From a virus: DNA of 64,000 nt. The DNA lies in the IMG/VR virus record IMGVR_UViG_3300033156_000587, positions 1-64,000 of that record; one strand, given 5' to 3'. Below the pieces are notes generated by a model, which had not been told where the DNA came from, ran no database searches, and saw only the letters and a program-made list of their open reading frames with translations. The position numbers and the translations under genes are program-made. Shown here one piece after another: positions 32,988 to 54,463 of the stretch. Positions within the stretch are counted from its first letter, which is position 1. Each line of letters opens with the position of its first letter.

Positions 32988-33905
32988 GTGCGGCGCTTTC
33001 TCATCACGGGTGGCGCTGGATCATTCGGTACCGCGTTTGCGAAGAGATTCGGTGACGACTACGACCTCTGTTGCTACTCCCGAGATCCCCTAAAGCACGA
33101 CGCTCTGAAGCGGATCGTCCCCTCTGTAGACACCTTCGTTGGCTCCGTGACGAACAGGCGGAGGTTCGCGGAGATCCTGGGCTACTGGCGGCCAGATGCC
33201 GTGATCCATGCCGCAGCTTTGAAGCACGTGATCGCAGGCGAAGATAATCCCCTTGAGTACCTGATGATCAATACGATTGGCTCCAGGGTTGTCGCCCATT
33301 GCTGTGGCATGGCTGGAGTGGAGCGTGTGCTCCTGATTTCCACGGATAAGGCCGTTGAGCCAGTTAATGTCTATGGCCTGACCAAAGCCCTCGCCGAAGC
33401 GATCTGGAAGGAGATGGCACGGCGGTACCCGCATACGAAGTTCATCATCATCCGCTTGGGCAATGTCCTGGACGCGCGGGGGTCCGTGCTCCGGCGGTGG
33501 ATCGCGGCGAAGAAGGCGAATAAGCCTCTCGTAGCCAGGGTCCCGGCCCCTACCAGGTTTGTCCTCTCGCTTGACATGGCCGTGAATTTCGCCATGGAGG
33601 CACTGAAAATAGGAAGATCTGGGGACGTCCTCGTTCCCGCAGACCTGAAGGCCGTGGACATCCTTGACATGGCCTACGCGATCTCCAGTCACGTCATAAC
33701 CATGCCTCTCTATCCCGCGGAAAAGCAGCACGAGGTCCTGGCTTCCTGGCGTGAGGGGAGAGAACGCGTTGGCCCATTCTATCGCGTGTTCCCCGATCCT
33801 GAGTCGAAGAATGAGACGCCGTACTCGTCGCGATACGCTCCCCTTATGGACCCTCGGTCAGTTGCCTTCGAGATGTTCAGACATCTCTGGGAGGATGAGA
33901 AATGA
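32988..33905 (+). CDS. UDP-GlcNAc 4,6-dehydratase-like (PseB/CapD family)
   Basis: 305 residues from a GTG start with AGGGAGGAAGCC upstream. Short-chain dehydrogenase/reductase fold: GGAGSFG nucleotide loop at residues 8-14, HAAALKHV at 75-82, and the family-typical STDKA (118-122) with Tyr129 and Lys133. PseB-type enzymes dehydrate UDP-N-acetylglucosamine at C4-C6, the first step toward pseudaminic-type sugars. First gene of the sugar operon; the stop overlaps the synthase start (ATGA). Confidence 0.8.
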   Translation: MRRFLITGGAGSFGTAFAKRFGDDYDLCCYSRDPLKHDALKRIVPSVDTFVGSVTNRRRFAEILGYWRPDAVIHAAALKHVIAGEDNPLEYLMINTIGSRVVAHCCGMAGVERVLLISTDKAVEPVNVYGLTKALAEAIWKEMARRYPHTKFIIIRLGNVLDARGSVLRRWIAAKKANKPLVARVPAPTRFVLSLDMAVNFAMEALKIGRSGDVLVPADLKAVDILDMAYAISSHVITMPLYPAEKQHEVLASWREGRERVGPFYRVFPDPESKNETPYSSRYAPLMDPRSVAFEMFRHLWEDEK

Positions 33906-34723
33906 GACTGATAGCCGAGATCGGAACGAACTTTGACCCAGACGATCCCCTGGAAGCCCTGAAAACAGCTCAGGAGAATGGCGCGGATATCGTAAAGATT
34001 CAGCTCTTCCGGGCGAAAACTCTCTATGCCGTCCCAGAACTTCAGGAACGCGTCAGGCTGTTCGAGTTCAAACCGGAGTGGCTCAAGGACTGGGACGGCT
34101 GTCCCGTGTGGGCGACTGTGTTCGACATCGAGTTAGCCGAGCAAGCGCTACCTTATGTGAAGGGACTCAAGATCGCTTCCGGGGACCTTGTGTACCAGAA
34201 GATCGTGGAAAGCACGGCGAGGCTAGCGTCGGAGACAAACATCCCTCTAGCCTTGTCCACAGGAGCAGCGACGGAGGCCGAGATCAAGCAAGCTCTAGAC
34301 TGGGTCCAGCCATTTCCCGTAAAGGAACTGATCTTGTTTCAGTGCGTCTCAGTCTATCCCGCGGAACCGAAGGATTATAACCTGAGGGCGATCCTGCCTT
34401 TCCGAAAATACGTGGACACGATCGGGTTATCTGACCATACGACATCCTACATCACAGCTATGCTGGCGAGGGCCCTGGGATACGAGGTCTTCGAGCGGCA
34501 TTTTAAGTTCCAGGAAACCTGGCAAAAGCCGGTCACGCCGCCAGACTGGGGAGCTTGGGCATTCACGCCCAGCGCCTTTTGGGAGTATCGCTTCATGATC
34601 GAGTGGACCGACGAGATCCTGGGAACCGGGATGAAACGCGTTATGGAAGACGAGTCCGACGAGCGGGTCTGGGCTCGCAGAGGAAGTGATGGGAGGAGGC
34701 CTATCGATGTCGCAAGAGACTGA
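33902..34723 (+). CDS. NeuB-type nonulosonate synthase
   Basis: 273 residues with the NeuB barrel: DIVKIQLF (30-37), SGDLVYQK (93-100), LFQCVSVYPA, IGLSDHTT (174-181) and ERHFKF. These enzymes condense phosphoenolpyruvate with a six-carbon amino sugar to give sialic, legionaminic or pseudaminic acids. The C-terminal SAF/antifreeze-like domain usual in bacterial NeuB is absent, so the protein is short. Start overlaps the previous gene by four bases. Confidence 0.8.
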   Translation: MRLIAEIGTNFDPDDPLEALKTAQENGADIVKIQLFRAKTLYAVPELQERVRLFEFKPEWLKDWDGCPVWATVFDIELAEQALPYVKGLKIASGDLVYQKIVESTARLASETNIPLALSTGAATEAEIKQALDWVQPFPVKELILFQCVSVYPAEPKDYNLRAILPFRKYVDTIGLSDHTTSYITAMLARALGYEVFERHFKFQETWQKPVTPPDWGAWAFTPSAFWEYRFMIEWTDEILGTGMKRVMEDESDERVWARRGSDGRRPIDVARD

Positions 34724-35999
34724 TGTGAGAGGGAACCTGACTTGGGAGACCTTTCATTCCGTATTGCCCGCAGCGGGCACGTTCAGCAAGGACCCGCGAG
34801 CGTGGGGCATCCGGGACGATGAATCCATCGGCATGATCCGGCATGGGTACGGACCAATCGTGATGGACATCAGCGGGAAGTCCTATATCGACTGGGTTTC
34901 GGGCCTGGGAGCGAACTTGTTTGGACACAATCACCGGAACTGGATGAGCCGGTGGATGTATTACCTTCACGCCACGGGCCTGATGACGTGCGCGTCCTTG
35001 CCGCACATGTACGAGTACACGCTCGCCATCCGGATCGCCGACTATGCTTGGCCCCACATCAAGGGAGCTGAGAAATGGGAAGACGTCCAAGTCCGGTTCG
35101 GCAAGACGGGGTCGGATGTCCTGGACATGGCCGTGAGACTAGCGCGAGCGGCGAAGTCCAAGGATGTTGTACTCTTCACCGGCTATCACGGGTGGCACGA
35201 TTGGACGATCTCAGCGACGCCGCCTGCTTGGGGCATCCCGCGCGGGTCGGGTCCTTTTGCCCAAAAGGTCAGCTTGAATGACCTGTCCCGTTGGCCGGAG
35301 GGAGGCCCGGCTGCGGTGGTCGTTGAGATCCCATTATCTTTTGATCCCAAGAAGTTCGATGAGATCCGCCAGTATTGCAACGCAACAGGAGCCCTCTTAA
35401 TCTTGGACGAAGTGGTTACCGGGTTCAGGTACGGAGTCCCAGGCTACGTCGAGAGACTCCCCGTGAAGCCGGACATCATCTGCTTCGGGAAAGCCCTTGG
35501 GAACGGGCTTCCCATCTCTGCAATCGTAGGTCCCAAGGATTTGATGTCCTGGTTCGCCAGGACCGACCCCGTGTTTTGCTCTTCAACCGCGTTCGGCGAC
35601 GTCGTCTCCCTGTCCGGTGGCCTAGCGACGCTAGACCTCGTCGCTGCGAGCGCCGATGGCATCCTAGGGCATATTCGGGACGTGGGAGCAGCCCTGATCC
35701 GGTCCCTCTCGGAAGTGTCGGAGCCTTACGACTTCTTCAGGATTGAGGGCGATCCAGAACGATCCCTCTGCGTCTTCGAGCGGGACGAGCAGAGAGCTCT
35801 GTTTATCCGCTGGATGATGGAAGCAGGGATCATGATGAATAGGCCGAATTTCCCAACGGTATCGCATACGAAGGCCGACGTGGAGATCACAGCAAGGGCT
35901 GCGGCTCATGTCTTGGAGCGAATCTCCAAGTTGGGCGAGTCTGAGCTTAAGGAACTTGGGAGCCGATACCATGCTCGCGTGCTCTTCCGAGACCGCTGA
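34707..35999 (+). CDS. Class III PLP aminotransferase (GSAM-like)
   Basis: 430 residues from ATG 34707 (GGGAGGAGG upstream). Fold-type I aminotransferase related to glutamate-1-semialdehyde aminomutase: GLGANLFGHNH, TGYHGWHDW, LILDEVVTGFR (Asp234) and ICFGKALGNGLP with the PLP lysine at 262. Enzymes of this class accompany NeuB and SpsF genes in surface-sugar clusters. It overlaps the synthase by 17 bases. Confidence 0.8.
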   Translation: MSQETDVRGNLTWETFHSVLPAAGTFSKDPRAWGIRDDESIGMIRHGYGPIVMDISGKSYIDWVSGLGANLFGHNHRNWMSRWMYYLHATGLMTCASLPHMYEYTLAIRIADYAWPHIKGAEKWEDVQVRFGKTGSDVLDMAVRLARAAKSKDVVLFTGYHGWHDWTISATPPAWGIPRGSGPFAQKVSLNDLSRWPEGGPAAVVVEIPLSFDPKKFDEIRQYCNATGALLILDEVVTGFRYGVPGYVERLPVKPDIICFGKALGNGLPISAIVGPKDLMSWFARTDPVFCSSTAFGDVVSLSGGLATLDLVAASADGILGHIRDVGAALIRSLSEVSEPYDFFRIEGDPERSLCVFERDEQRALFIRWMMEAGIMMNRPNFPTVSHTKADVEITARAAAHVLERISKLGESELKELGSRYHARVLFRDR

Positions 36000-36011
36000 G
36001 GAGGTTGAGGT

Positions 36012-36662
36012 ATGAAGAATATTATCCGAGTCCTTGATAGACCGGTGCAGGTTCTGGACATCGCGGAGGGTTGGGCATTCCCAGACCCCAGGTCTCTCCT
36101 GAAGAACCCTGAGAAGTCATACCGAGCTTGGAAGCTCTCGAACCTCAGCTCTTACCAAATAGGACAAGATGAAGTGCTCGTGTTCATGGGCGGGGAGAGG
36201 GATTACTCCAAGCCTGAGATCGAGGAGGAGGTCGAGCTTTCCCGGTTCGAAGTGAAGGGATACGGACCTCACTTACACAGGATCGTGTATCAGACGCCAC
36301 CGGAAAGTCCCCTTCGAGCCGGAGTCACGGTTAACGTCTCCGGATGGAGCTCGTTCCCTCCACATGGGTTTGAGCGAGATGGAAAGCACCCTGCAGGTTT
36401 CATGGAGATCTTCTACTTCATGATCGCGAAGGATAGCGACCATTGGGAAGGACCAGCGCAGGGTATCTTATTATCCGGTACATTCGGAAGACCGTGGGTC
36501 AGGATCGTGAGAGACGGGTTGAGCTTGATCATCTACCCGGGCCTTCACGCTGTCACCGCGATGCCGGGGTGCAAGATCGGGTACATCTGGGCTTACACCG
36601 CCGATGAGTTGCCGGACAAGACAATTGACGGGAAGGCAGGAAGGTATCGTGAGGACGTGTAG
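36012..36662 (+). CDS. KduI/IolB-like sugar isomerase (cupin)
   Basis: 216 residues. VSGWSSFPPHGFE is close to the metal-site motif of the KduI/IolB family (5-deoxyglucuronate / 5-keto-uronate isomerases), followed by EIFYFMIA and a later cupin half around GLHAVTAMPGCKIGYIW. A role in remodelling a keto sugar within the operon is plausible; substrate unknown. GAGG lies upstream of the ATG. Confidence 0.6.
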   Translation: MKNIIRVLDRPVQVLDIAEGWAFPDPRSLLKNPEKSYRAWKLSNLSSYQIGQDEVLVFMGGERDYSKPEIEEEVELSRFEVKGYGPHLHRIVYQTPPESPLRAGVTVNVSGWSSFPPHGFERDGKHPAGFMEIFYFMIAKDSDHWEGPAQGILLSGTFGRPWVRIVRDGLSLIIYPGLHAVTAMPGCKIGYIWAYTADELPDKTIDGKAGRYREDV

Positions 36663-37539
36663 AGGACGTTTGCTGGCCGAGAACAACGGGCTCCGGGTGA
36701 TCGATTGCGAGGTCTGTGGTTTTGCCCACCTTGAGTCCGGTGGCGCGGCAGAGATCGAGTACATGGCGGGTGCATTCCAGGATGATAACTGGTTCGAGAA
36801 GGAGCGCCAGGAACACGTCGCGGGGCTTTGGGACTCCTGCTATGAGTTCCAGTGGCGTATCATGAAGCAAACCGAGCCGTTCCTGGACTTCGGCTGCGGC
36901 GCGGGCTGGTTCATGTGGTACGTCAGGAGGACGTCCATCCCGATGCCGATCGAGTGCTATGGCGCAGAGATCGCGCCGATCCCTCACGAGTACAGGCCAG
37001 TGAACGTCAAGCACTTGATATACCATCCTGCCGCTCCCGAGGTGAACCAGCGGTTTCCAGCGGTGAGACTGTCCCTGGTTCTGGAACACATCGAGACGCC
37101 TAGAGGATTTCTCTTGACCCATCTTGAGTTCTGGAAGCCCCGCCGGATCTTAATCATCGTGCCAAACGAGTTCAACCCGCTACAGAGGAAAGTGGGAGGC
37201 TCCTGGTTTGTCTCTCACTGGCATTGGAACTACTTCACGCCTCGGTCGCTGACCAACTTGCTTGCGAGATTTGGTTATCGCCCAACGTTTCAGGGCGCGG
37301 GCTTTCCGATGGAACTGTTCATCCTGCTAGGGTTCGATTACAGAAAGGATGAGGAACTCGGAAAGAGGTGTCACTTAACGCGGTTAAGGTTGGAGAAACG
37401 CGTGGGCTGGAGAATCTTCCACGTCTACAGTCTGCTTCACCGCCTCCTCGGCTGGGGACGGGAGATGATCTATCTTTTCGAGATCGAGCGAAAGCCGATC
37501 AAGATTCCGTCTACCCGGGTGCCACTTGCTCTTGCATAG
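36649..37539 (+). CDS. SAM-dependent methyltransferase
   Basis: 296 residues from the GTG at 36649 (GGAAGG upstream), overlapping the previous gene by 14 bases. The N-terminus has Cys4 and a CEVCGF pair like a small zinc site; the class I methyltransferase core begins with FLDFGCGAGW, with SLVLEHIETP later. C-methyltransferases of this layout act on sugars or lipids; here a modified sugar is the likely substrate. Confidence 0.7.
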   Translation: MRTCRGRLLAENNGLRVIDCEVCGFAHLESGGAAEIEYMAGAFQDDNWFEKERQEHVAGLWDSCYEFQWRIMKQTEPFLDFGCGAGWFMWYVRRTSIPMPIECYGAEIAPIPHEYRPVNVKHLIYHPAAPEVNQRFPAVRLSLVLEHIETPRGFLLTHLEFWKPRRILIIVPNEFNPLQRKVGGSWFVSHWHWNYFTPRSLTNLLARFGYRPTFQGAGFPMELFILLGFDYRKDEELGKRCHLTRLRLEKRVGWRIFHVYSLLHRLLGWGREMIYLFEIERKPIKIPSTRVPLALA

Positions 37540-37564
37540 AGAATTGCCGCGGGGGGAAGATTCA

Positions 37565-38341
37565 ATGATCATAGGGATCTATTCTGCAAGCCCGGAATAT
37601 CACGGGTTTGGTCACTACTACCGCTGCCTCGGACTGGCCCAAGTTTTAGCTGCGCAACGTCACACCGTATTCTGGAAGGACAGCCTGATGCCGGACTTCA
37701 ACCTGGGACAAGATCTCGGGTTCGAGCTCGATTGGCTGATCGTGGATCATCCTGACGAGACCGTGATAAACCAGCTCGATGCACGGGCGAAACGAAGGGC
37801 TTACCTCCATGGAAATTCCGAGCTCACGAGGCCGATGAATGAAGACGCTTGGGACCTGATCGTGGTCCAGGGAGTGAGATACGGAGTGAGGAACATTAAC
37901 GCCTCTCGCTGGCTAGTTGGACCACAGTACGCTTTGATCCGGCCTGAGATCTCGAACTTAGTCGGCATCTTCAGGCCTCCAAAGGAGAATAAAGTCCTAG
38001 TCTACCCGGATGATCTCCTGGACCTAGTGCCCGATGGTTGGGTTGTCGCATACCCGAACGATTTCCACGTGGACTTCGGGATCGCTCGATTCGGCATGAT
38101 TTCCTTGGAACTCGCTGCGCTTGGCATTCCTCAGGCGATCATTTACGATACGATGGTCGAGCCGACTGCCGTCTACCTGAAAAAGACAGGAGCTGCGACC
38201 TTAATCAAGCGAGAGGTCGCAGAGAGGGACAGAGATGTGATTAAGCGGGAGGTCGAACGAATCGAGGTCCCGTTTAAGCCTCCGATCGACGGCCTCGGCT
38301 GCTGGAGACTTGCACACGAGCTGGAGTTGAGGGCGACATGA
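37565..38341 (+). CDS. PseG-like nucleotide-sugar hydrolase / GT-B protein
   Basis: 258 residues from ATG 37565 (GGGGGGAAG upstream). HGFGHYYRCLGLAQVL at the N-terminus is the glycine/histidine signature of PseG-type UDP-sugar hydrolases (GxGHxxR); the C-terminal half (MISLELAALGIPQAIIYD) is the nucleotide-binding GT-B half. In pseudaminic acid synthesis PseG removes UDP before the NeuB-type condensation. A transferase role cannot be excluded. Confidence 0.65.
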   Translation: MIIGIYSASPEYHGFGHYYRCLGLAQVLAAQRHTVFWKDSLMPDFNLGQDLGFELDWLIVDHPDETVINQLDARAKRRAYLHGNSELTRPMNEDAWDLIVVQGVRYGVRNINASRWLVGPQYALIRPEISNLVGIFRPPKENKVLVYPDDLLDLVPDGWVVAYPNDFHVDFGIARFGMISLELAALGIPQAIIYDTMVEPTAVYLKKTGAATLIKREVAERDRDVIKREVERIEVPFKPPIDGLGCWRLAHELELRAT

Positions 38342-39003
38342 GTTGCATCATCGTTCTCGGCTTGCCTCGGTCCGGCACGAGCATGGTCTCCGGGGTCCTT
38401 CACCACCTCGGGGTCTTCATGGGTAAGGAGGACAAGTTCACGCCTCCGGATGAGTGGAACCCTCTAGGGTACTTTGAGAATTTGGAGATCACGGGTCTCC
38501 TGGTCCGAGCTAGCAGGACTGCGACAACCAGGGAACTCATGGAAGCTGCCGCGTCTCGCGGGGTCTTTCCGGTTCATGCGGACATTTCCCATGAGCTGGA
38601 GCGCCGGATAAGGGCGATAGAGGCGAGTCACGAGATCTGGGGATTCAAAGATCCCAGGCTCTTGCTTCCCTTTTTCTTCGAGGCCTTTACTGCCCTTGTG
38701 AAGTCTGACATCAAGCTGATCGTAACGACCCGCGGGCTTCTCCGCGTGAAGGAGTCGATCGGGGCTAAGCTGAAGAAGACCGAGAAGCAATCCTTCGATG
38801 AGACCGTGGACCTAGCCGTGAATCATCTCGCGCTGAGGTTAGTGGACGTCCTAGGACGAGTCCCGGTGCCTGTCCTGGTCGTGCAGTTTGACTCTTTGAT
38901 TGACGACCCGAAACGGAAAGTCCGCGAGATCGCCGAGTTCGTGGGAGTCGAGGTGACACAGAAGGCGATATCATTCCCGAATCCGGCTTTCCGGAGGTTC
39001 TGA
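38338..39003 (+). CDS. Sulfotransferase family protein
   Basis: 221 residues with the PAPS-binding loop GLPRSGTSM (8-16), the EIWGFKDPRLLL element and a 3'-phosphate-type region around TTRGLLRVKESI. The pattern is that of bacterial sugar sulfotransferases. Overlaps the previous gene by four bases, suggesting coupled translation. May sulfate the operon's sugar product. Confidence 0.7.
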   Translation: MSCIIVLGLPRSGTSMVSGVLHHLGVFMGKEDKFTPPDEWNPLGYFENLEITGLLVRASRTATTRELMEAAASRGVFPVHADISHELERRIRAIEASHEIWGFKDPRLLLPFFFEAFTALVKSDIKLIVTTRGLLRVKESIGAKLKKTEKQSFDETVDLAVNHLALRLVDVLGRVPVPVLVVQFDSLIDDPKRKVREIAEFVGVEVTQKAISFPNPAFRRF

Positions 39004-40202
39004 TGGCTAAGTGGGTTTGGCTTATCGGCGGTGGGGTCATGCAGTATCCCATGCTGAGGAAGATCCGGGAACGTGGATACAAGAGCCTAGTCACAGATGG
39101 GAACCCCGAATGCAGATGCGCTTGGGAAGCTGACGCGTTCTTCCGCGTCAGCACGTATGACATCAAGGGACACCTGGAACTCGCGTCGAAGCTGAAGGAT
39201 CTTGATATCGCGGGAGTCCTGACCGTTGCCGCAGACGTGGGGCCGACGGTGTCCGCGGTAGCCCACGTTCTCAGTCTCCCAGCCTGCTCCCTGGCGTCCG
39301 CGATAGCGGCGCGCGATAAAGTGAGTATGCGAGTGTCTACCGCGCTTTTGTCTAAACATCCGGTTTGGATGGCACTGCCAGCTACAAGAGCTGAAGCCGC
39401 GTGGCATTCCTGGGACACCTGGGCCCGGAGCAAGGGAATCCCATCGCTGCCGTGCGTGGTGAAAGCGCCTGACAACCGAGCGTCCCGCGGAATGACCGTC
39501 GTAAGACGGCCGGAGGACATGACACCCGCGGTCCGGAAGGCGGCGAGTTCCGCGATCCAGCGAAAGGACACGGTCCTGATCGAGGAATTCCTCGAAGGGG
39601 AAGAGTACGCGATCGACACGTTCATCGTGGATGGAAAGGCTCGTATGGTGAACATCGCGAAGCGGATCTTCCATGAACCCGGGATCGAGGCAGGCCACAT
39701 AAACCCGGGAGCATTCGATCCCGAGATGGAAAGGATCGCGACGGAATATGCTGAAGCACTCGGTGTGGATCAGGGCCCGTTTAAGCTGGATCTCGTGAAA
39801 CATCCGAGATACGGCTGGTGTGTCCTGGAAACAGCCACGAGGCTGTCCGGAGGATTCGATCACATGTGTACTGCGGTTATCGGCCCGGGGAAGGATATCA
39901 CGGGCCTGATGCTTGACTTCGCGTTGGGCCTTCCCTTTGATGGGAGCAAGCTGGAGTCGAAGATCGGGAAATATGCCGCGTGCTATGCGCCGGTCTTCGA
40001 GCCAGGTACGATCCTTGGATATCTGTACCATGGATCTCCCGAGCTTCCAGACGGCGTAATCGTCGTGAACAGGCGTGAGATCCCACCGCTCGAAACGTCT
40101 GCAGACAGGCCTATATTCGTGATCGAGACCGGTGACTCGGAGGAAGAGGCATGGGAGAAAGCCAAGGAGATCGCCTCAGGCTTAGAGCCGATGTACGCAT
40201 AG
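39003..40202 (+). CDS. ATP-grasp enzyme
   Basis: 399 residues. N-terminal pre-ATP domain (WVWLIGGGVMQYPMLRKIRERG), ATP-grasp core with PCVVKAPDNRASRGMTVV, LIEEFLEGEEYAIDTFIV and a metal-binding end LDLV...VLETATRLSGGFDH. ATP-grasp ligases of this type occur in sugar and cofactor clusters with NeuB and SpsF genes. Substrate not deducible. Start overlaps the previous stop by one base (TGATG). Confidence 0.7.
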   Translation: MAKWVWLIGGGVMQYPMLRKIRERGYKSLVTDGNPECRCAWEADAFFRVSTYDIKGHLELASKLKDLDIAGVLTVAADVGPTVSAVAHVLSLPACSLASAIAARDKVSMRVSTALLSKHPVWMALPATRAEAAWHSWDTWARSKGIPSLPCVVKAPDNRASRGMTVVRRPEDMTPAVRKAASSAIQRKDTVLIEEFLEGEEYAIDTFIVDGKARMVNIAKRIFHEPGIEAGHINPGAFDPEMERIATEYAEALGVDQGPFKLDLVKHPRYGWCVLETATRLSGGFDHMCTAVIGPGKDITGLMLDFALGLPFDGSKLESKIGKYAACYAPVFEPGTILGYLYHGSPELPDGVIVVNRREIPPLETSADRPIFVIETGDSEEEAWEKAKEIASGLEPMYA

Positions 40203-41197
40203 GGATCGTGATCACGGCGAGGATGGACTCAGAGAGGCTTCCAGGGAAAGTGCTCGCTGAGATAGCCGGGAAACCGTTGCTAGGACACCTTGTGGAGAGA
40301 TATGCCCGGGTCGGGAAAGTAGTCGTTGCCACATCCGATGATCCAAGTGATGACCCGATTGCGACGTGGGCAGAGCGTCACCTTGTTCCTTGTTTCCGCG
40401 GGAGCAAGGAAGATGTTACAGACAGGATCTGGGGCGCGATCAAGGCATGGCTGAGCGACTGCGACTTTGTGATGCGAGGCCTGGGAGATTGTCCGTTCCC
40501 GGAGACGATGTTCATTACGAGAGCTGCATTCGTGATGGACGCGATGGACGCGGACATGTTCCTTTGGATGCTCCCACCGTGGGTTTGGCCCGTGTATGGA
40601 GCGAGGGAGTTCCCGATCCGGACCTCACTCTGGGAGGCGATGAACCAACTCGCGACGGGAGACGAGCGGGAACACCCCGATTTGTACCTGCATCGGCATA
40701 GGAAGGACATCAAAATCGCGTATCATGAGCCTCCGCCTCCGGACTATTTTAGACCGCATAGACTGGAGATCGATTACCCGGAAGACCTCGAAATGTTGAG
40801 GCGGCTCGTCAAGGAGTTCGACGGCCGCTGGCCGACCCTGATCGAAGCTTTGGATGTCCTGGACGCGAACCCGAAAATCGCGCTCATCAATGCGAACAGG
40901 GAAGAGAGAACGGGTCCATACGCGTCCTATTCCCAAGAGGACCGGGACAAGTGGGCCCAGGCCCAGCGGGGCAAGCCCGTCGTAACCTGGGATAACCGGA
41001 TATGGCGACCAAAGAAGAACGAGAAACCAATCTTTTGTTCCGTAGGGACTTGCCTCATCGGGTATTATCACGGTGGGTGGCTAAGGACAAAAGAGGGGCA
41101 CGCGATTAAGGAAGGTCGGCTCGCGTGCCCCTGTGGAGCGGGAAGATTCTGGCGTGCTAAGGCGATCGACTTGCGCGAAGGATCTCGACCGGTATAG
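40151..41197 (+). CDS. SpsF/NeuA-type cytidylyltransferase with zinc tail
   Basis: 348 residues. TARMDSERLPGKVLAEI (22-38) and GKPLLGHLVERY are the nucleotide-binding signature of SpsF/CMP-nonulosonate synthetases, which activate the acid with CTP. The C-terminal ~90 residues carry CSVGTC and CPCG, a probable zinc-binding extension unusual for the family. The ATG at 40151 has GGAGG 8 bases upstream and overlaps the previous gene by 52 bases. Last gene of the operon. Confidence 0.75.
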   Translation: MGESQGDRLRLRADVRIGIVITARMDSERLPGKVLAEIAGKPLLGHLVERYARVGKVVVATSDDPSDDPIATWAERHLVPCFRGSKEDVTDRIWGAIKAWLSDCDFVMRGLGDCPFPETMFITRAAFVMDAMDADMFLWMLPPWVWPVYGAREFPIRTSLWEAMNQLATGDEREHPDLYLHRHRKDIKIAYHEPPPPDYFRPHRLEIDYPEDLEMLRRLVKEFDGRWPTLIEALDVLDANPKIALINANREERTGPYASYSQEDRDKWAQAQRGKPVVTWDNRIWRPKKNEKPIFCSVGTCLIGYYHGGWLRTKEGHAIKEGRLACPCGAGRFWRAKAIDLREGSRPV

Positions 41198-43440: not shown

Positions 43441-43469
43441 ACTCTAGCATATTTCTCGCGGTTTGTCAA
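43441..43469 (-). promoter_or_regulatory. Helicase promoter candidate
   Basis: Minus-strand TTGACA (43469-43464) and TAGAGT (43446-43441) at 17-base spacing, about 35 bases before the helicase start. The element is back-to-back with a plus-strand promoter. Confidence 0.55.
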
Positions 43470-43477
43470 GGGTTTCT

Positions 43478-43507
43478 TTTCGATTTCCCAGGGTTTTGTG
43501 TTACACT
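43478..43507 (+). promoter_or_regulatory. Promoter of SDR/Y-RNA region, TTTCGA-N18-TACACT
   Basis: TTTCGA at 43478-43483 and TACACT at 43502-43507 with an upstream TG. The expected transcription start (about 43514) is only about three bases before the ATG at 43517, so the first message would be nearly leaderless. Confidence 0.55.
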
Positions 43508-43516
43508 GAAAGTGCT

Positions 43517-44191
43517 ATGAAGAGGATCTTAGTATTTGGAGCAACCGGGAATCTTGGAAGGGCGCTTCGGGAAGAAGCGCGGTGGCGAAGCTGGGAATTC
43601 CGGGGCATTGCGAGGAACCCGGGAGATTTCAGCGACACTCGGAAAGCGAACGCTACTCATTGGACGAAAATAAGCCGGGTTCTCTCAGACGAGGCTCCAT
43701 TTGACCTCGTGGTCTTCGCCCAGGGCATCCAGCGAAGGGTCGGGATCTGGGACGCAGGTCCCCATGATTTCGACATCCTGGCGGCGAATCTGGACGGCTC
43801 TTTGATCTCGACGATTTTGTTAGTACGATACAGGAGGTTGAACCAGGGAGCCTTATTAGTCTATTGCTCCTCGATCCAAGCCGCGGCTCCCAGGGGTGGC
43901 CGGTTCCTGTACGCGGTAGCGAAGGCTGGAGTGGAAGCTCTAGCGAGGGCGGTCACCGCGGAGACCGGCGGCTTGGTCCGAGGTGTAGCCTTGAGACTCG
44001 GCCAGTTCGAGAACACGATGAAAGGGATCGAGTTCTCCGAGGCCGAGCGGGAGAGACTGGAAGAGCGGACGTTGATGGGCTTCATCCCGGAGCGGGAGAT
44101 CGCGAAGTTTATCTTCGACCTGTACGATGCTCGCCACATTGCAGGATGTGTAATCGACTACGAAGGCGGGCATCTCCTGAACATCTGGTGA
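43517..44191 (+). CDS. Short-chain dehydrogenase/reductase
   Basis: 224 residues from ATG 43517. Rossmann loop FGATGNLG (residues 6-13), a YCSSIQAA serine element and YAVAK with the Tyr/Lys pair, then a GGHLL C-terminus. SDRs with a GATGxxG loop reduce or epimerise nucleotide sugars; with the oxidoreductase at 47.4 kb it probably serves the sugar pathway. There is no clear Shine-Dalgarno, consistent with a leaderless message. Confidence 0.75.
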   Translation: MKRILVFGATGNLGRALREEARWRSWEFRGIARNPGDFSDTRKANATHWTKISRVLSDEAPFDLVVFAQGIQRRVGIWDAGPHDFDILAANLDGSLISTILLVRYRRLNQGALLVYCSSIQAAAPRGGRFLYAVAKAGVEALARAVTAETGGLVRGVALRLGQFENTMKGIEFSEAERERLEERTLMGFIPEREIAKFIFDLYDARHIAGCVIDYEGGHLLNIW

Positions 44192-44336: not shown

Positions 44337-44483
44337 GGGCCCGTAGCTCAATTGGCAGAGCACTATTGCCGTTGCCGGGTCTTGCCTCGAAGGGATGTGC
44401 ACCATGTAGGCAGACCGGGGCCGGACGGTGACGGTTATCCACTTGAAATGGAGAGGTTGCGGGTTCGAGTCCCGCCGGGCCCA
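44337..44483 (+). ncRNA. tRNA-like RNA carrying a Y-RNA Ro60-binding stem
   Basis: 147 bases. A perfect 7-bp acceptor (44337-44343 with 44476-44482), U8/A9, a D-arm (GCTC/GAGC with GG in the loop) and a T-arm (GCGGG, TTCGAGT, CCCGC) are standard tRNA parts. In place of a plain anticodon arm there is a ~70-base insert: CCGTTGCCG (44369-44377) pairs with CGGTGACGG (44426-44434), an internal loop is formed by CTT and CGGA, and an outer helix closes on a loop. These strands are the Ro60-site consensus of the four Y RNAs downstream (GGCCGGA, CTTGCC, GGTTATC) but in circularly permuted order. A small CCA/TGG stem with loop CTTGAAA follows. No CCA end is encoded. Ordinary decoding seems unlikely. 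Confidence 0.7.
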
Positions 44484-44508
44484 CTCAAGCCGAAAGGGAC
44501 TAAGGGCA

Positions 44509-44685
44509 GTGAAAAGCAACAAGGCGGAGAGGCTGGCATTAGCCTTTGCCGCGGCATTAGTACCCGGCACGGTGGTAGCGGCCGTCTTCCTAGACGAACT
44601 AGGCATCCGTATCTTCGGTATGATCGCAATCATTACGCTGGGTGGACTAGTTATTTTAGCCCTAGCTACACCGAACAAGGGCTAG
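44509..44685 (+). CDS. Small two-helix membrane protein (58 aa)
   Basis: From a GTG start with AAGGG upstream. After a basic N-terminus (VKSNKAERL) there are two hydrophobic helices (about 9-27 and 31-54) separated by LDELG. It lies between the tRNA-like RNA and the Y RNA array; its coding end abuts the first Y RNA stem, so all may be on one transcript. Confidence 0.5.
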   Translation: MKSNKAERLALAFAAALVPGTVVAAVFLDELGIRIFGMIAIITLGGLVILALATPNKG

Positions 44686-44788
44686 TCGGGCCGGATGCAC
44701 ACGGTTATCGAGTCTGGCCCTCGGGGAGGCTGAAGGTCTCCTTAGCCGGTTCGAGTCCGGTATAGCCGTGTGCAAATCCTTGCCCGAC
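44685..44788 (+). ncRNA. Y RNA 1 with tRNA-like cloverleaf
   Basis: Outer stem GTCGGGC/GCCCGAC, internal loop CGGA opposite AATCCTT, 9-bp inner stem TGCACACGG/CCGTGTGCA, then TTATC. This is the Ro60-binding architecture of Y RNAs. The distal part folds as three hairpins: CGAG/CTCG with a GG loop, a 5-bp arm with 7-base loop CTGAAGG, and a T-arm (GCCGG, TTCGAGT, CCGGT), stacked on CGGTTAT/ATAGCCG. It mimics a tRNA lacking positions 8-9, joined to the Y stem through its acceptor side. Confidence 0.8.
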
Positions 44789-44800
44789 CTTGAAAGCGAC

Positions 44801-44860
44801 GCGGGCCGGATCGTATGGGTTACCCTGCTAAGGTATCTCCCATGCGAGCAACTCGCCCGC
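44801..44860 (+). ncRNA. Y RNA 2 (minimal)
   Basis: Outer stem GCGGGC/GCCCGC, loop CGGA opposite GCAACTC, inner stem TCGTATGGG/CCCATGCGA (one G-U), then TTACC in place of TTATC. The distal part is only one small hairpin, TACC/GGTA with a 7-base loop. 60 bases, near the lower size limit for a Y RNA. Confidence 0.75.
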
Positions 44861-44881
44861 TTCTTTGGGAATAGATCTTGC

Positions 44882-44942
44882 GCGGGCCGATGCACGAGGG
44901 TTATCAGCCGCGTTGGGTTGGCCTCGTGCAAAACTTGCCCGC
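44882..44942 (+). ncRNA. Y RNA 3 (minimal)
   Basis: Outer stem GCGGGC/GCCCGC, loop CGA opposite AAACTT, inner stem TGCACGAGG/CCTCGTGCA, then GTTATCAG. The first strand (GGGCCGATG followed by GGGTTATCAG) is strikingly like vertebrate Y4 RNA. The distal loop is about 22 bases with little structure. The inner stem differs from its neighbours by compensated changes. Confidence 0.8.
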
Positions 44943-44961
44943 TCGTGCCAACGGACGAGAC

Positions 44962-45061
44962 GCGGGCCGGAGTGTGAGGGTTATCGGTTACTCAGGTTCG
45001 AGTCCTGAATCCCAGGCGGGGAAACCCGTGCTGGGATGCTCCTCACACGACCCTTGCCCGC
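44962..45061 (+). ncRNA. Y RNA 4 with T-arm and closed acceptor-like helix
   Basis: Outer stem GCGGGC/GCCCGC, loop CGGA opposite ACCCTT, inner stem GTGTGAGG/CCTCACAC, then GTTATC. The distal part has a T-arm (TCAGG, TTCGAGT, CCTGA) stacked on a 7-bp acceptor-like helix ATCCCAG/CTGGGAT that is closed by CGGG-GAAA-CCCG. A tRNA module permuted and sealed at its acceptor is what is known for bacterial YrlA RNAs. CTCTTTT follows, a possible 3' end. Confidence 0.8.
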
Positions 45062-45091
45062 TCTTTTATCCTCATGAAAGGAGGGTCGGAG

Positions 45092-46744
45092 ATGGTTAAC
45101 TACAGGAAGCATTTCTCTACGCGGGAGACTCCACAGAGCGAGCCGATCCCTGGCCGAGCTATGGCTCGGAACAATGCCGGTGGATTCGCGTTTCAGATCG
45201 ACAAGTGGATGCGGCTTCGGAGGTTCTTAATCCTCGGCTCTGAGGGCGGGACGTACTACGTCTCCGAGCACAAGCTCACGATCGATAATGCCAGGAATGT
45301 CCTAGCTTGCATCCGAGAGGATGGGAAGCGAGCAGTGCAAGAAATCGTGGGAGTCTCCGAATCCGGTCGCGCCCCGAAGAACGATCCCGCGCTATTCGCC
45401 TTGGCGATGGCGATGAGCGAAGGAGATCTGGAAACGCGTCGAGAAGCGTTCAGCGTGTTCCCGCGAGTGGCGAGAACCGGATATCACTTATTCCGGTTCG
45501 CCGAGTACGTCGAGGGTTTCCGCGGCTGGGGTCGTGGCTTGAGACGGACGATAGGCCGGTGGTACTTGGGTAAAGACCCCAACATGCTCGCTTACCAGGT
45601 GACCAAGTACCAACAACGTGAGGGCTGGAGCCATCGGGATATCCTGAGGCTCGCGCATCCCAAGACCGCGTCCAAGGCTCATAACGCGATCTTCCGCTGG
45701 ATCACCCAGAGCGAGATCAGCGACGATCTCCCGGATCTGATCGTCGGGCTGGAGAAGGCCCGAAAGGCACAGAATGAACAGGAGATCGTGAAGCTGATCG
45801 AGGAGTATGGTCTGCCTTGGGAGGCGATCCCGACGGAATTCTTGGGTTCTGCACGCGTCTGGGAAGCTCTGTTGCCGAGGCTTCCTATGACCGCGCTGCT
45901 CCGGAATTTGGCCCGGATGACCGCGAACGGGCTACTTGTCCCGATGAGCGATGCTGTAAAACTCGTGACCGAGCGGATTACAAACGAGGAGGCGTTGAGG
46001 AAGGCACGAGTGCACCCGATCCAGGTCCTGAGCGCGCTCATAACTTACCAGCGTGGTCGAGGGGTCCGAGGGCGGTTGACGTGGGAGCCGGTGGCGAGGG
46101 TCATTGATGCCCTGGATGCCGCGTTCTACCTGTCCTTCGGGAACGTGGAGCCGATCGGGAAGCGGGTGGTCCTCGCGTTGGACGTATCCGCGTCCATGGC
46201 TACCGGGATGATTGCTGGCGTCCCGGACCTGACGCCTCGTGTAGCTGCGGCCGCTATGGCGATGGTAACCGCGCGCGTGGAGCCAGAGCATGTCATCGTC
46301 GCGTTTACTGGGGAGATGGTCCCGCTGGACATCTCGCCTCGGGAACGGCTGGATGACGTGCTGGAGAAGGTTGACAGGCTCGACTTCGGCCCCACGGACT
46401 GCTCGTTGCCCATGATGTGGGCTCTCGGGTATCAGCCCAAGGTAGCGAAAAACTGGTGGTCCTGGAGGAGCGCAGGCTACAGGAAGGTACGGAATGAAGT
46501 CGTCCGCGCCGATGCGTTTCTGATCTATACCGACAGTGAGACCTGGTTCGGGAAGATTCACCCGTTCCAAGCGTTACAGAAATATCGGCATGAGACCGGG
46601 ATCGATGCGAAGCTCGTGGTCGTCGCCATGACCGCAACGGAGTTCTCCATTGCCGATCCCGGCGATCCCGGGATGTTGGACGTCGTGGGATTCGATACTG
46701 TGACTCCCAATCTGATCGCAGACTTCGTGAGAGGGGAGATCTGA
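45092..46744 (+). CDS. rsr: Ro60-like TROVE-domain RNA-binding protein
   Basis: 550 residues from ATG 45092, chosen for AAAGGAGGG 7 bases upstream. The N-terminal two thirds are the helical-repeat TROVE ring (ending QVLSALITYQRGRGVRG), followed by a von Willebrand A domain with an intact metal-site DVSAS (Asp364, Ser366, Ser368), a conserved FTGEMVPL segment and FLIYTDSETW. Ro60 binds Y RNAs on its outer surface and single-stranded RNA ends in its ring, and in bacteria partners with nucleases for RNA decay. The four Y RNAs lie immediately upstream. No RtcB or PNPase gene is in the window. Confidence 0.92.
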   Translation: MVNYRKHFSTRETPQSEPIPGRAMARNNAGGFAFQIDKWMRLRRFLILGSEGGTYYVSEHKLTIDNARNVLACIREDGKRAVQEIVGVSESGRAPKNDPALFALAMAMSEGDLETRREAFSVFPRVARTGYHLFRFAEYVEGFRGWGRGLRRTIGRWYLGKDPNMLAYQVTKYQQREGWSHRDILRLAHPKTASKAHNAIFRWITQSEISDDLPDLIVGLEKARKAQNEQEIVKLIEEYGLPWEAIPTEFLGSARVWEALLPRLPMTALLRNLARMTANGLLVPMSDAVKLVTERITNEEALRKARVHPIQVLSALITYQRGRGVRGRLTWEPVARVIDALDAAFYLSFGNVEPIGKRVVLALDVSASMATGMIAGVPDLTPRVAAAAMAMVTARVEPEHVIVAFTGEMVPLDISPRERLDDVLEKVDRLDFGPTDCSLPMMWALGYQPKVAKNWWSWRSAGYRKVRNEVVRADAFLIYTDSETWFGKIHPFQALQKYRHETGIDAKLVVVAMTATEFSIADPGDPGMLDVVGFDTVTPNLIADFVRGEI

Positions 46745-46774: not shown

Positions 46775-46993
46775 ATGGAAATCTCGCTGAAGACCCTGAT
46801 TGGGATCTTGGCAGGCTTGTGGTTATTCTGGCTGTTCATCAAGCCGCTTCCTGAGCCGCCAGAGCATGACTCAATTGAGCAAATGACAAACGATCTCATC
46901 ACGAGCTGGGATGTCGGTTTGCCAGGATGCCTGCTAGTAATCCTACTTGGCGCGATCGCAATATACTGCCTGACAGGGCCCGGCGCAGTATAG
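46775..46993 (+). CDS. Small membrane protein (72 aa)
   Basis: Two hydrophobic helices (residues ~6-24 and ~48-66) flank an acidic loop (PLPEPPEHDSIEQ). GGGAAGGAT precedes the ATG. Unknown function; follows the Ro60 gene by 30 bases. Confidence 0.5.
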   Translation: MEISLKTLIGILAGLWLFWLFIKPLPEPPEHDSIEQMTNDLITSWDVGLPGCLLVILLGAIAIYCLTGPGAV

Positions 46994-47372: not shown

Positions 47373-48179
47373 ATGAAGGCGCTTGTAGTTGGTTTCGGTT
47401 CCGCTGGAAGGCGGCATAAGAAATATCTTGAGATGCTTGGGCTTCGCGTGGATACGGTCGATCCGAACGTGCCCGAAGCGGCGTTTCAGTCCTTGGAAGA
47501 GGCTGTCAACAGGCCGACGGTTTACGATCTCGCGGTAGTCGCCACACCTCCAGACTTGCATCTGGAACATACCGTTATGCTGCTATCCAAGACACGCGTC
47601 CCGAAGATCCTATGCGAGAAACCTCTCTGCGGATGGGACCAGATGGACGCGTTTCCAGAGGATGACCGGGTGCGGATCGCGTATAACTACCGATATCATC
47701 CCTGGATCGCGAAGACTCTGGGCCCCGAGCCATCGCAGGGCTGGTTTCTGTTCTCGATCCAGAAACGGGAGAGGATACCGGAATGGGGCTTGCTGCTGGA
47801 CCACGTGAGCCATGATTTTGATATCCTATCCTGGAAAGCGGGCCTTGCGGAGATCACGAACGCGACGTGGATCACTTACGGTCCGATCATCGGCTGGTGG
47901 ATTACAGGGCACACGGAGCGAAACGCGCCGGTATACGTATTAGATCTCGTGAGCACTGCTCCTGGATTTCGGCGATATGTCACAATTTGGCGTTTCGATC
48001 GAGCTGCCTTGTGGATTAAAATGTCAAGTGAGATGTTCCGGGACATGATCCGGGCCGCGGTCTCCGGCCATGCTTGGGCTTCGCGGCTTCCCACGGTGAG
48101 TGAAGCGAGGCATGTACAGGCGCTCCTGGAGCAGGCAAGATCGCTCGGGAAGAACGCCCCGTCTCGTGAGGTGTCCTGA
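47373..48179 (+). CDS. Gfo/Idh/MocA-family oxidoreductase
   Basis: 268 residues with the NAD(P) loop GFGSAGRRH (7-15), the VVATPPDLH strand and the family hallmark CEKPL. The C-terminal beta domain is short. These enzymes oxidise or reduce sugars and are standard members of NeuB/SpsF sugar clusters, so it probably completes the pathway at 33-41 kb, despite lying 6 kb away. AAAGGAGTCC precedes the ATG. Confidence 0.8.
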   Translation: MKALVVGFGSAGRRHKKYLEMLGLRVDTVDPNVPEAAFQSLEEAVNRPTVYDLAVVATPPDLHLEHTVMLLSKTRVPKILCEKPLCGWDQMDAFPEDDRVRIAYNYRYHPWIAKTLGPEPSQGWFLFSIQKRERIPEWGLLLDHVSHDFDILSWKAGLAEITNATWITYGPIIGWWITGHTERNAPVYVLDLVSTAPGFRRYVTIWRFDRAALWIKMSSEMFRDMIRAAVSGHAWASRLPTVSEARHVQALLEQARSLGKNAPSREVS

Positions 48180-48939: not shown

Positions 48940-48973
48940 GTTTCCTTCCCTTTGAAAGATGGGAGACGGAAAG

Positions 48974-49777
48974 ATGATCAATCAAGTGCTAGTGCGACAA
49001 CTGCTAGACGATCGGTTCCGGATTCAGCGGGACAGGATACGCTGTGGGAATCGGATCAGTGCGATCCTACGCGGATCTGATACCGCGGATCAAAGGGTAC
49101 TGGAATACCTATACGAGCAACACCAAAGGCTTCTAGAAGACGAGCAGCGGGCCACGGAACGGCTGTTGGATGAATTGGACGGGGTACCTATCTTAGATGC
49201 CGCGTGCGGTGTGAAGGGAATAGGCCGAGTTTTAGCCGCTCAGGTGATCGCGGAAATCGGTGATATTGGCCGGTTCCCCACGGTCTCCAAGTTGTGGCGG
49301 TATTCTGGTTACGGCTTGGCTCCGTACTGGGTCAACAAGGATGGTCGCGTCATGGCCCCCAAGGTCGGGCGAAAATGGGAACGCGTAGATGGGAAATTGA
49401 TCTCCGTGAAAGCCGAGGTACAGCCCGAAGAGGGTTGGGAGTTGAAGGTGATCCCGGATCGGAAGGTAAAGGGATTCCTGCTCCCGTACAACTCACGGTT
49501 GAAACATATCATCCATATCGTGGCTCAGTCGCTCCTAAAGAGTAACAGTCCATACAGAGAGATTTATGATGATGCGATCGCCTCTTATTCTCCCGGCTTA
49601 CGCAGGATCGTCCGGCACATGCGGGCGATGCGGAAGATGAAGAAAATCTGGCTTTCTCATCTTTGGGAGGTGTGGCGAAGGCTGGAGGGGTTGCCGGTTC
49701 GGAAGGCTTGGATTTTCGAGCATGGAGGGCATCAGGATTACTTGGACCCGCAGGCGTTCGGCTGGCTGATAGATTAA
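48974..49777 (+). CDS. Lone IS110/IS116 C-terminal transposase-domain protein
   Basis: 267 residues from ATG 48974 (GGGAGACGG upstream). Residues ~75-125 (GVKGIGRVLAAQVIAEIGDI, then FPTVSKLWRYSGYGLAP) match the Transposase_20 domain of IS110-family recombinases, including a Ser-Gly in the expected place, and the helical remainder (SRLKHIIHIVAQSLLKS) fits. The N-terminal DEDD/RuvC-like half of IS110 enzymes is absent; instead there is a short coiled coil. It may be a phage recombination protein rather than a mobile element; no terminal repeats were found. Confidence 0.7.
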   Translation: MINQVLVRQLLDDRFRIQRDRIRCGNRISAILRGSDTADQRVLEYLYEQHQRLLEDEQRATERLLDELDGVPILDAACGVKGIGRVLAAQVIAEIGDIGRFPTVSKLWRYSGYGLAPYWVNKDGRVMAPKVGRKWERVDGKLISVKAEVQPEEGWELKVIPDRKVKGFLLPYNSRLKHIIHIVAQSLLKSNSPYREIYDDAIASYSPGLRRIVRHMRAMRKMKKIWLSHLWEVWRRLEGLPVRKAWIFEHGGHQDYLDPQAFGWLID

Positions 49778-52198: not shown

Positions 52199-52955
52199 CG
52201 TTAACCCTCCTATCTAAGCAATGCCAAATGCCAGTCTTGTCGTCCAGAACCCACGTTCGACCTTGGGAGTCAGTCCCAAGGCCGAATTCTAAGTCGGCCT
52301 CATCTAGATCAGGGGCGTTAGTGATTACGCCCCCGACATTGTGCCACGTGGGCTCCGGCTCGGAAATTTCTATTCGGTGCCATTCACCGTCCCGATACAC
52401 CCACCGGTGGGTGCGGGTAAAGACGTATTCCCAGGACAGGTTGGAAAACCACAACCCGTCCCTTTGCGCCCATCGCCCTACTCGCACGATGCGGGGGGCG
52501 TTAGGGAGACACAATGCGAATCGCTCGCTTGCGAAGTGGTCTCGGAACGCCTGGACCAACTCGCGAGTGTTGGGGCGAAGGCGGGATAAGAAGACGCATA
52601 GCTCGCGCGTATCAGATTCTAGCGCATTGCCCCAGCCCGGGAGAACGCCATTGTGGAACACCCACACTCGGGAACCCTCCCGGGTTCTGACATAAAACGG
52701 GTGAACGTTCAACACCGTCTTGACGCCCGTAGTGCCCAATCGGAAGTGGACCACCGCCGGGCCTTGGGCGTCTATGAATCTGGCGTAGAGTTGGCGGGCC
52801 CGCTCATCGTCTGTTTCCTTGGCGATGCGCCAAATCCGTGTCCTCGGGTCCCAAACCGCGATTCCCACACCGTCTGGGTTATGCGAAAATAGTTGCTCAA
52901 ATGCTGGGTACTTTGAGACAGCCTCTGGTCGGTACTTAATAACTATGACACACAT
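52170..52955 (-). CDS. Class II glutamine amidotransferase
   Basis: 261 residues. Met1-Cys2 gives the N-terminal nucleophile after Met removal; N-x-DGVGIAVWD, VVHFRLGTTG and VWVFHNGVL are the Ntn-amidotransferase landmarks, shared with a phage group found beside COOH-NH2 ligases. It would release ammonia from glutamine for its partner. The C-terminal ~100 residues are less typical. Overlaps the ligase gene by 13 bases. Confidence 0.75.
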   Translation of the reverse strand: MCVIVIKYRPEAVSKYPAFEQLFSHNPDGVGIAVWDPRTRIWRIAKETDDERARQLYARFIDAQGPAVVHFRLGTTGVKTVLNVHPFYVRTREGSRVWVFHNGVLPGWGNALESDTRELCVFLSRLRPNTRELVQAFRDHFASERFALCLPNAPRIVRVGRWAQRDGLWFSNLSWEYVFTRTHRWVYRDGEWHRIEISEPEPTWHNVGGVITNAPDLDEADLEFGLGTDSQGRTWVLDDKTGIWHCLDRRVNDERDNEDPD

Positions 52956-54340
52956 TGCTGTACCTCCTCAAACAATCTTGTAATCTCGGCGGCGTCATTG
53001 CTAGTCCTGATGCTATAGGGGAGCCCTATGGCATGATTAGGGCAATACCCCGTCCGGCCGTCACAGTAATAACCATCCGCCATCCGCCATCCAAAAGCTT
53101 GGGCGAGACGTGGGCATGTTACGATATCGCCCCGCCGGACCGCCCATCCAAAGATGCGTAGTCTGAACGGGAGGGTTATCTCCCGCGCCACTCGGCGGAA
53201 CGTTGGGGAAAAGATGTAATCGCGGTCCAAATGCACAGATTGGGGAGACAAGCGTAGGATCTCGCAATGCAACCCGAAGGGCTGGCCCGATCGGACAAGT
53301 TCCTCCAGATCCTTGATTTTCCGAGATAGTCCCCAGACAGCCCGTCCACCTTCCACGATGCGACGGATGGATTCCAGATACATCACCGCCACCTCGGGGT
53401 CCGCCAGCAATGCGGCGGGCGGGGTGCGGTACTCTACACCGTGGATCTTTAGCTCATACGCACACCGCCGCCGGTAGTAGCCCCGGGCATCACCAGAGAG
53501 GTCTAGGGCGTACCCGACCCGGCGGTCAATCTCGCGTATTGCTTCGTGGATATCGCCCGCCAGGACCTCGCCCTCCGGAGCCCCGATATGGATATGGAAA
53601 CCGATGGGATAGACATGGCCCGACAGACAGGCACGATACCCCGTCTCTTCCTCCCATTCGGTAACAGCCTCATAGAATGCTTCCACCAACAACTCTGGTC
53701 GGCGGAACGGGCGAGGGAAGCGGACCTCGGCCACGTCTCGCGCACCGTCTAGCCCGATATAGGCGTCCGTCCCGTATTGCCGGACCTCCTCAATTACGTT
53801 CCCCGCATAGACTACTTGCCCCTCCTCGGGGTCCCAGACCTCGAATTCCGGGTCAGCCCCCCAGGTAGGCGCAGATTCCTCATCCTCTGGGACCTCGAAT
53901 CGGGGTTTCAGCCCCAAGAGGTCCATCAGGCGCTGAAATTGCGGCGCAAAGCTAGGATCATGGACAAGGTCCACCGTGATTAGCAGGTGGCGCGAGGGAG
54001 AGTAGTAAGCAAAGACGTATGAGGTACCTTGCTCCCAGTAGACTACCAGGACCCCGTCAGAGTCCCGGTTCTCACGGATAGAGGACGAAATTGAAACATA
54101 ATCGTCCCAGAACGGGCTCGCGCCGGGAAGCGGGGCGTCAGAGAGGTCAATCTCTAAGACCCGGGAGTACTCCAATTTTTCGTAAAGTATACGGGTCAGG
54201 AAAAAGACCGCGCAATCCCGGGCCCCCACAGGCGGGGCGCCGTGCGCGATAACAGTACTAAAATACGCCTGCGGGAGACGGTACGTGATGTCTCCCCTGG
54301 GATCAGGGCATGAGACGGTATACAGCAATCGTTTACCCAT
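52943..54340 (-). CDS. COOH-NH2 ligase (phiEco32-type, GS-like)
   Basis: 465 residues from ATG 54340 (GAGGAGGTGTCAAG upstream). WGADPEFEV (160-168) is the hallmark of the phage COOH-NH2 ligase type 2 family, a glutamine-synthetase-like fold; EVRFPRP, GFHIHIGAP and YELKIHGVEYRTPPA supply the other acidic and His positions. With the adjacent amidotransferase it could make an amide or peptide tag on a protein, sugar or peptidoglycan fragment, as proposed for phiEco32-like phages. Confidence 0.75.
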   Translation of the reverse strand: MGKRLLYTVSCPDPRGDITYRLPQAYFSTVIAHGAPPVGARDCAVFFLTRILYEKLEYSRVLEIDLSDAPLPGASPFWDDYVSISSSIRENRDSDGVLVVYWEQGTSYVFAYYSPSRHLLITVDLVHDPSFAPQFQRLMDLLGLKPRFEVPEDEESAPTWGADPEFEVWDPEEGQVVYAGNVIEEVRQYGTDAYIGLDGARDVAEVRFPRPFRRPELLVEAFYEAVTEWEEETGYRACLSGHVYPIGFHIHIGAPEGEVLAGDIHEAIREIDRRVGYALDLSGDARGYYRRRCAYELKIHGVEYRTPPAALLADPEVAVMYLESIRRIVEGGRAVWGLSRKIKDLEELVRSGQPFGLHCEILRLSPQSVHLDRDYIFSPTFRRVAREITLPFRLRIFGWAVRRGDIVTCPRLAQAFGWRMADGYYCDGRTGYCPNHAIGLPYSIRTSNDAAEITRLFEEVQQCVS

Positions 54341-54463
54341 CTTGACACCTCCTCGCGAAATTTGCCCCAAGGCGTGGACTTGGGGTCATAGCACATTATA
54401 GCAGGTTTTCGCTCAAATTTGTTACGTGAATTCTACATGAACCCTCAATAGTCCTTGAGCAGC

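Follow-up and report, generated by a model that had tools for sequence, protein, structure and literature searches.

The stretch of DNA analysed here (the window, 64,000 nucleotides) comes from a virus record of 69,483 bases (G000) that carries portal, large terminase and tape measure genes and is that of a tailed phage. On its plus strand, four Y RNAs (Y1-Y4, together spanning 44687-45060) are followed by a complete Ro60/TROVE gene and preceded by a fifth RNA of a different topology, here called the composite, which the first-pass annotation had missed in describing an array of four (Table 1). This fifth, tRNA-topology RNA is the most unusual part of the locus. Short hydrophobic ORFs lie on both sides of the Y RNA-Ro60 block, one in the interval between the composite and Y1 (44509-44685) and the other at 46775-46993.

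Table 1. Features of the Ro60 locus in window coordinates; the RNA ends of Y1-Y4 are predicted from sequence and pairing.
Feature	Position	Strand	Description
tRNA-topology Y RNA (composite)	44337-44483	+	R1 model, descriptor scan, minimum-energy fold
Composite, acceptor	44337-44343/44476-44482	+	
Composite, D arm	44346-44361	+	
Composite, anticodon stem	44363-44364 + 44439-44441/44449-44453	+	
Ro60-binding Y helix insert	44369-44439	+	between tRNA positions 28 and 29, permuted order
Insert, Y 3' strand (comes first)	44369-44376, 44384-44388	+	CCGTTGCC, GCCTC
Insert, loop sealing Y helix	44389-44416	+	
Insert, Y 5' strand	44417-44421, 44427-44434, 44435-44439	+	GGGGC, GGTGACGG, then TTATC
Composite, anticodon loop	44442-44448	+	CTTGAAA, anticodon UGA
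Composite, T arm	44459-44475	+	
Y1	44687-44786	+	canonical Y RNA; distal domain T-arm-like GCCGG-TTCGAGT-CCGGT; fold z -5.96
Y2	44802-44859	+	minimal canonical Y RNA; fold z -4.08; sbRNA 32.4 bits, under cut-off
Y3	44883-44941	+	minimal canonical Y RNA; fold z -3.74
Y4	44963-45060	+	canonical Y RNA; T-arm-like TCAGG-TTCGAGT-CCTGA (44992-45008) and closed hairpin; fold z -4.48
Ro60/TROVE protein	45092-46744	+	about 550 aa; Pfam, PDB homologues, invariant residues

The Ro60 protein probably starts at 45092, which has a good ribosome site, rather than at the ATG at 45074 from which the ORF is open. It matches the Pfam families TROVE (3.9e-49) and vWA_Ro60 (9e-61) and, among solved homologues, Rsr (PDB 2nvo, 1.5e-128) and Ro60 (PDB 1yvp, 5.7e-127). 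The TROVE ring is present together with a vWA domain whose metal-site residues (DxSxS, T435 and D481) are aligned and invariant across 13 homologues, bearing out the earlier description of a complete TROVE protein with an intact metal site. K172, R176 and H189 are likewise invariant in 13 relatives and align to the Y RNA-binding face of vertebrate Ro60; judging from this alignment, His187, a Y RNA-binding residue of the vertebrate protein (PMC4030889), and its basic neighbours have counterparts in the window's Ro60.

As far as sequence can tell, the first-pass annotation was right to propose a phage Ro60 accompanied by Ro60-binding Y RNAs: Y1-Y4 each display the CGGGC...GCCCG closure, an upper stem of 8-9 bp and GGTTA(T/C)C, and they accord with the canonical bacterial Y RNA, in which a Ro60-binding helix with GGTTAYC is closed by the RNA's own 5' and 3' ends. 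The compensating stem differences noted earlier are also real, as the four upper stems differ in sequence while their pairing remains perfect or near-perfect in every one. Fold z-scores range from -3.7 to -6.0, and three dinucleotide shuffles of the window yielded no canonical unit scoring as well as these four. Scanning 1.53 Mb of Ro60 loci for the canonical form by motif alone, we obtained 231 matches on the Ro60 strand against one on the opposite strand. A covariance check with known Y RNA and YrlA models, suggested at the outset, came back empty, since the search of the window with Rfam 15 gave no bacterial Y RNA or YrlA family above cut-off; the sole Rfam signal in the window is a weak one to a nematode sbRNA model (Y2). 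ARAGORN places a tRNA-Phe at 44701-44770, which we rejected as a false body covering Y1.

An array of four had been presented as larger than usual; it does stand at the high end but is not unique, as 19 of the 95 viral loci and 17 of the 80 cellular ones have at least four Y RNAs by total counts, with nine in L004. The four units differ in their resemblance to the tRNA-like domain of YrlA: Y1 and Y4 possess a T arm with a T loop and no clear D arm, and Y2 and Y3 have none of these features.

The composite, 147 nt in length, is arranged in the order acceptor-D-Y3'-Y5'-anticodon-T-acceptor, and its ends are those of the acceptor stem. The acceptor, D and T arms of a tRNA are all present with their conserved loops. 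The D arm is followed by two bases of the anticodon stem (CT), the insert with GGTTATC, the rest of the anticodon arm (CCA-CTTGAAA-TGGAG) and a variable region. What sets it apart from a tRNA is the anticodon arm, which is interrupted by the insert between positions 28 and 29 and bears UGA (Ser) on a class I body. The minimum-energy fold contains the acceptor, D, permuted Y and T helices, and the R1 covariance model scores the RNA at 99.5 bits (E 1.7e-22), this copy itself being one of the 30 training rows. On its own the composite has a weak fold z-score (-0.85), and covariation among relatives was therefore used in its place. A tRNA-Ser called by ARAGORN at 44412-44484 is a false body over the 3' half of the composite and was set aside.

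Relatives were sought in 177 Ro60 loci comprising the window, named phages, IMG/VR contigs and bacterial contigs. A descriptor search of 1.55 Mb of such loci recovered 67 composites, three of them doubtful on reading, against none in two shuffles. When only the motifs were demanded, with no pairing, there were 87 matches in the 177 loci, including a few repeats of one unit (59 distinct), and 100% of them lie on the Ro60 strand. As the descriptor scanner missed weak members, we built the covariance model R1, which lists 87 members; the one in L010 proved to be the junction of two canonical units in tandem. About 85 relatives are counted in all, each on the Ro60 strand. By record titles, many of which denote metagenome bins, they come from Chloroflexota, Myxococcota, Desulfonema, Beggiatoa relatives, Armatimonadota, Gemmatimonadota, Brocadia and Actinomycetota, alongside viral contigs. 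On the viral side composites occur in about 21 of 95 loci, every one an IMG/VR record; none of the 11 named phages examined had a clear tRNA-topology Y RNA, and blastn of the composite against named phages matched only tRNA or YrlA pieces. The composite is patchily distributed, its presence switching 22 times or more over a 142-row Ro60 tree, and canonical and permuted forms occur side by side within loci. In some members (L053:3671, L077:5915, L088:5993, L109:3658 and L163:3366) a further small hairpin separates the D arm from the Y helix. In the Chloroflexota loci L196-L199 shorter composites without GGTTATC (1501-1608) adjoin very divergent TROVE genes, perhaps as a co-evolved variant. The locus L170, binned to the archaeon Candidatus Nitrosotalea, shares its length, tRNA position and model score with the IMG/VR viral contig L081, and because of these matching features it may be a misbinned phage contig.

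The helices of the composite are maintained across these relatives. Of the 87 motif-only matches, 68 form at least six of the seven acceptor pairs, whereas swapped partners do so in 9.5%; every member has a paired D stem, and the Y helix scores 9.3 versus 7.1 when swapped. Across the insert, positions 27-28 are paired with 42-43 in 27 of the 31 members whose upper anticodon stem is intact, compared with 27% for swapped partners. In the 30-row alignment, both-sided changes occur at 32 of 35 pairs, and the covariation score is 0.565, against 0.191 for shuffled and 0.105-0.145 for slid versions; 89.5% of its cells are paired, a percentage inflated by the choice of rows partly through pairing-demanding searches, of which the swapped-partner acceptor test is independent. 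The acceptor, D, lower Y and T helices also emerge from RNAalifold when it is supplied with no structure.

The linkage to Ro60 extends to whole genomes. In 16 genomes chosen for having Ro60, all 23 strong R1 matches, distributed over 14 of the genomes, adjoin TROVE on the same strand. Two Sorangium genomes carry a further composite next to a second, divergent TROVE gene (G011:C1:4250798-4251997 and G012:C1:3833870-3835066). Among 201 Chloroflexota genomes drawn irrespective of Ro60, eight have a match, and in 8/8 TROVE is near and on the same strand, four of these combining a very divergent TROVE with a shorter RNA; TROVE was absent from 20 of 20 match-less Chloroflexota genomes checked. Since only the top-scoring candidates of each genome were evaluated, these counts are such that weak unlinked copies could escape them.

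Bacterial YrlA is reportedly a Y RNA with a tRNA-like domain, as associated with Chen 2014, Wang 2018 and PDB 6CU1. It shares with the composite the Ro60-binding helix with GGTTATC, a D arm, a T arm, an acceptor or acceptor-like helix and an adjoining Ro60 gene. The two differ in their ends: YrlA both begins and ends in the Y helix and has its acceptor helix sealed by a loop, whereas the composite ends at the acceptor stem and has its Y helix sealed. The strand order of YrlA (Y5'-T arm-acceptor-D arm-Y3') is accordingly not that of the composite, which is a circular permutation of canonical YrlA. The canonical RNA of Gordonia phage Sixama illustrates the relationship: it runs Y 5' strand, T arm, CCAGG-TTCG-CCTGG, D arm, CTAAAAACCCG and Y 3' strand, and is built of the blocks of the composite, but with the acceptor stem sealed. 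Of 153 canonical units 85 nt or longer, 35 take on the tRNA-topology form on rotation, a few of them spuriously on reading (the window's Y1 included), against none with shuffled distal domains. That YrlA (PDB 6CU1) superposes on tRNA via circular permutation has been published (PMC11472068). In other natural permuted RNAs, namely the hammerhead, twister, 5S rRNA and group II introns, the same parts likewise occur with different ends; a 2023 list of natural circular permutations names no Y RNA (PMC10085705). We found no description of natural tRNA-order Y RNAs in the literature covered, a partial set with the main bacterial Y RNA papers outside it. Actinophage Ro60 loci (for example those of Sixama, Cashline, Tonenili and Sparky) share a Ro-like protein and canonical Y RNAs, often within tRNA clusters. 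In that of Gordonia phage Mareelih (L020, 5990-6871) a tmRNA gene adjoins Ro60, and an annotated tRNA-Leu (6727-6815) is probably a misannotation because it overlaps a canonical YrlA (6748-6871).

Taken on the sequence evidence, the composite is probably a Ro60-bound tRNA mimic with real tRNA ends, and one of a five-RNA phage Ro60 set. It is probably not a decoding tRNA, because the anticodons misfit their bodies and vary among near-identical copies. About 11 anticodons have A34 and are not ACG, and Ser or Leu anticodons, the window's UGA included, sit on class I bodies; near-identical bodies carry UGA in L026 and UGU in L033, or CAU in L101 and CUU in L103. Further, some anticodon loops are of 6 or 8 nt, and some members, such as L001:1864, are without an anticodon arm.

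These same features weigh on the proposal that the Y helix is an excisable insert, such that a pre-tRNA is cut to yield a tRNA and a small RNA bound by Ro60, with an RNA ligase sealing the ends. With the insert removed at 28/29, at a cut site that was fitted, ARAGORN calls a tRNA in 80 of 87 members as opposed to 6 of 87 uncut; the pairing of 27-28 with 42-43 spans the insert, and the anticodon stem is retained, with U33 in 41 of 43. Against excision speak anticodons foreign to bacterial decoding, class I bodies that bear Ser or Leu anticodons, anticodon switches between near-identical bodies, the 6- and 8-nt loops and the members lacking the anticodon arm. For a group I intron the insert would be too short, and it is located outside the anticodon loop. 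The window's record has no RtcB, and RtcB adjoins Ro60 in few of the 21 genomes checked, so that we rejected it as a general neighbour or partner of Ro60. We accordingly regard excision as rather unlikely. A similarly low likelihood attaches to the broader idea that Ro60-bearing bacteria and phages process a tRNA interrupted at 28/29, by cutting and ligation or through a circular RNA, into Ro60-bound RNAs of either permutation; if true, it would tie the chemistry of tRNA splicing or repair to how Y RNAs arose, and both permutations would be accounted for as products of one tRNA ancestor.

Another possibility is that only Y1-Y4 matter, their distal domains routing Ro60 to different targets, and that the upstream element is a decayed tRNA gene. 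The first-pass annotation had viewed the four as a set of adaptors, of which the difference between distal domains stands (a T arm with a T loop in Y1 and Y4, minimal in Y2 and Y3) and is compatible with different adaptors, the targets being putative. There are indeed four canonical units with distal domains unlike each other, and canonical Y RNAs are known to tether Rsr to PNPase (PMC7790460). The upstream element, however, keeps every helix, has relatives with two-sided changes and shows a genome-wide tie to TROVE, none of which a decayed tRNA would be expected to keep; we thus consider this reading decidedly improbable. That composites are misread borders of tandem canonical Y RNAs is very improbable: it holds for the two near-identical tandem units of L010, an outside pairing partner scores nearly as well in about 35 of 84 members and some tandem arrays, such as that of Gordonia phage Cashline, can be read either way, but the window's unit stands alone, 200 nt from Y1, with a local Y helix pairing score of 11.8 against 0 for an upstream partner of its Y 3' strand and 9.2, near chance, for the best downstream alternative, and 12 loci have composites with no canonical unit detected.

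Returning to the tRNA mimic, the architecture, the covariation, the linkage to Ro60 in strand and gene, and the topology relative to canonical YrlA are observations, and the role of a Ro60-composite complex can be modelled by analogy on the Rsr-Y RNA-PNPase machine of Deinococcus. In Deinococcus radiodurans this machine (RYPER) likewise combines a Ro60 orthologue with a Y RNA bearing a tRNA-like effector module (PMC8394870), and the bacterial Y RNA tethers Rsr to PNPase through its tRNA-like domain (PMC8394870, PMC7790460). The phage locus differs in having five RNAs of two topologies and is known here from its genes alone, whereas PNPase is the partner in RYPER. We suggest that the composite would be transcribed together with the Ro60 unit and have both ends trimmed as in a tRNA, by RNase P and 3' processing. 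Ro60 would then hold it by the sealed Y helix projecting from the 5' strand of the anticodon stem at 28/29, leaving the tRNA elbow and the free acceptor end on offer to putative tRNA-binding or RNA-decay enzymes. Ro60 may in this way be directed to tRNA-like substrates that are structured or damaged, or such enzymes may be kept occupied during infection.

Y RNAs are known as tRNA mimics. The composites are complete tRNAs in gene order with a Ro60 handle at one defined site, and are likely intermediates between tRNA and Y RNA. As they end at the acceptor stem, they should enter the tRNA maturation path, and the purpose of the mimic becomes directly testable. They also constitute a hidden class of RNA, which tRNA finders miss or misplace, as the few calls on uncut members indicate, and for which Rfam is without a model.

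Several other genes in the window deserve mention. A sugar cassette resembling those for nonulosonic acid synthesis surrounds the Ro60 locus (32988-41197, 43463-44191 and 47373-48179) and includes an epimerase/dehydratase, an aminotransferase, NeuB, a cytidylyltransferase, a methyltransferase, a sulfotransferase and an ATP-grasp protein. Along the length of a 1402-aa protein (28631-32839) there are matches to NUDIX, ATP-dependent DNA ligase and DNA methyltransferase families. An IS110/IS116-type transposase ORF (48959-49777) lies downstream of the Ro60 region, and a phage phiEco32-like COOH.NH2 ligase family protein is encoded at 52943-54370.
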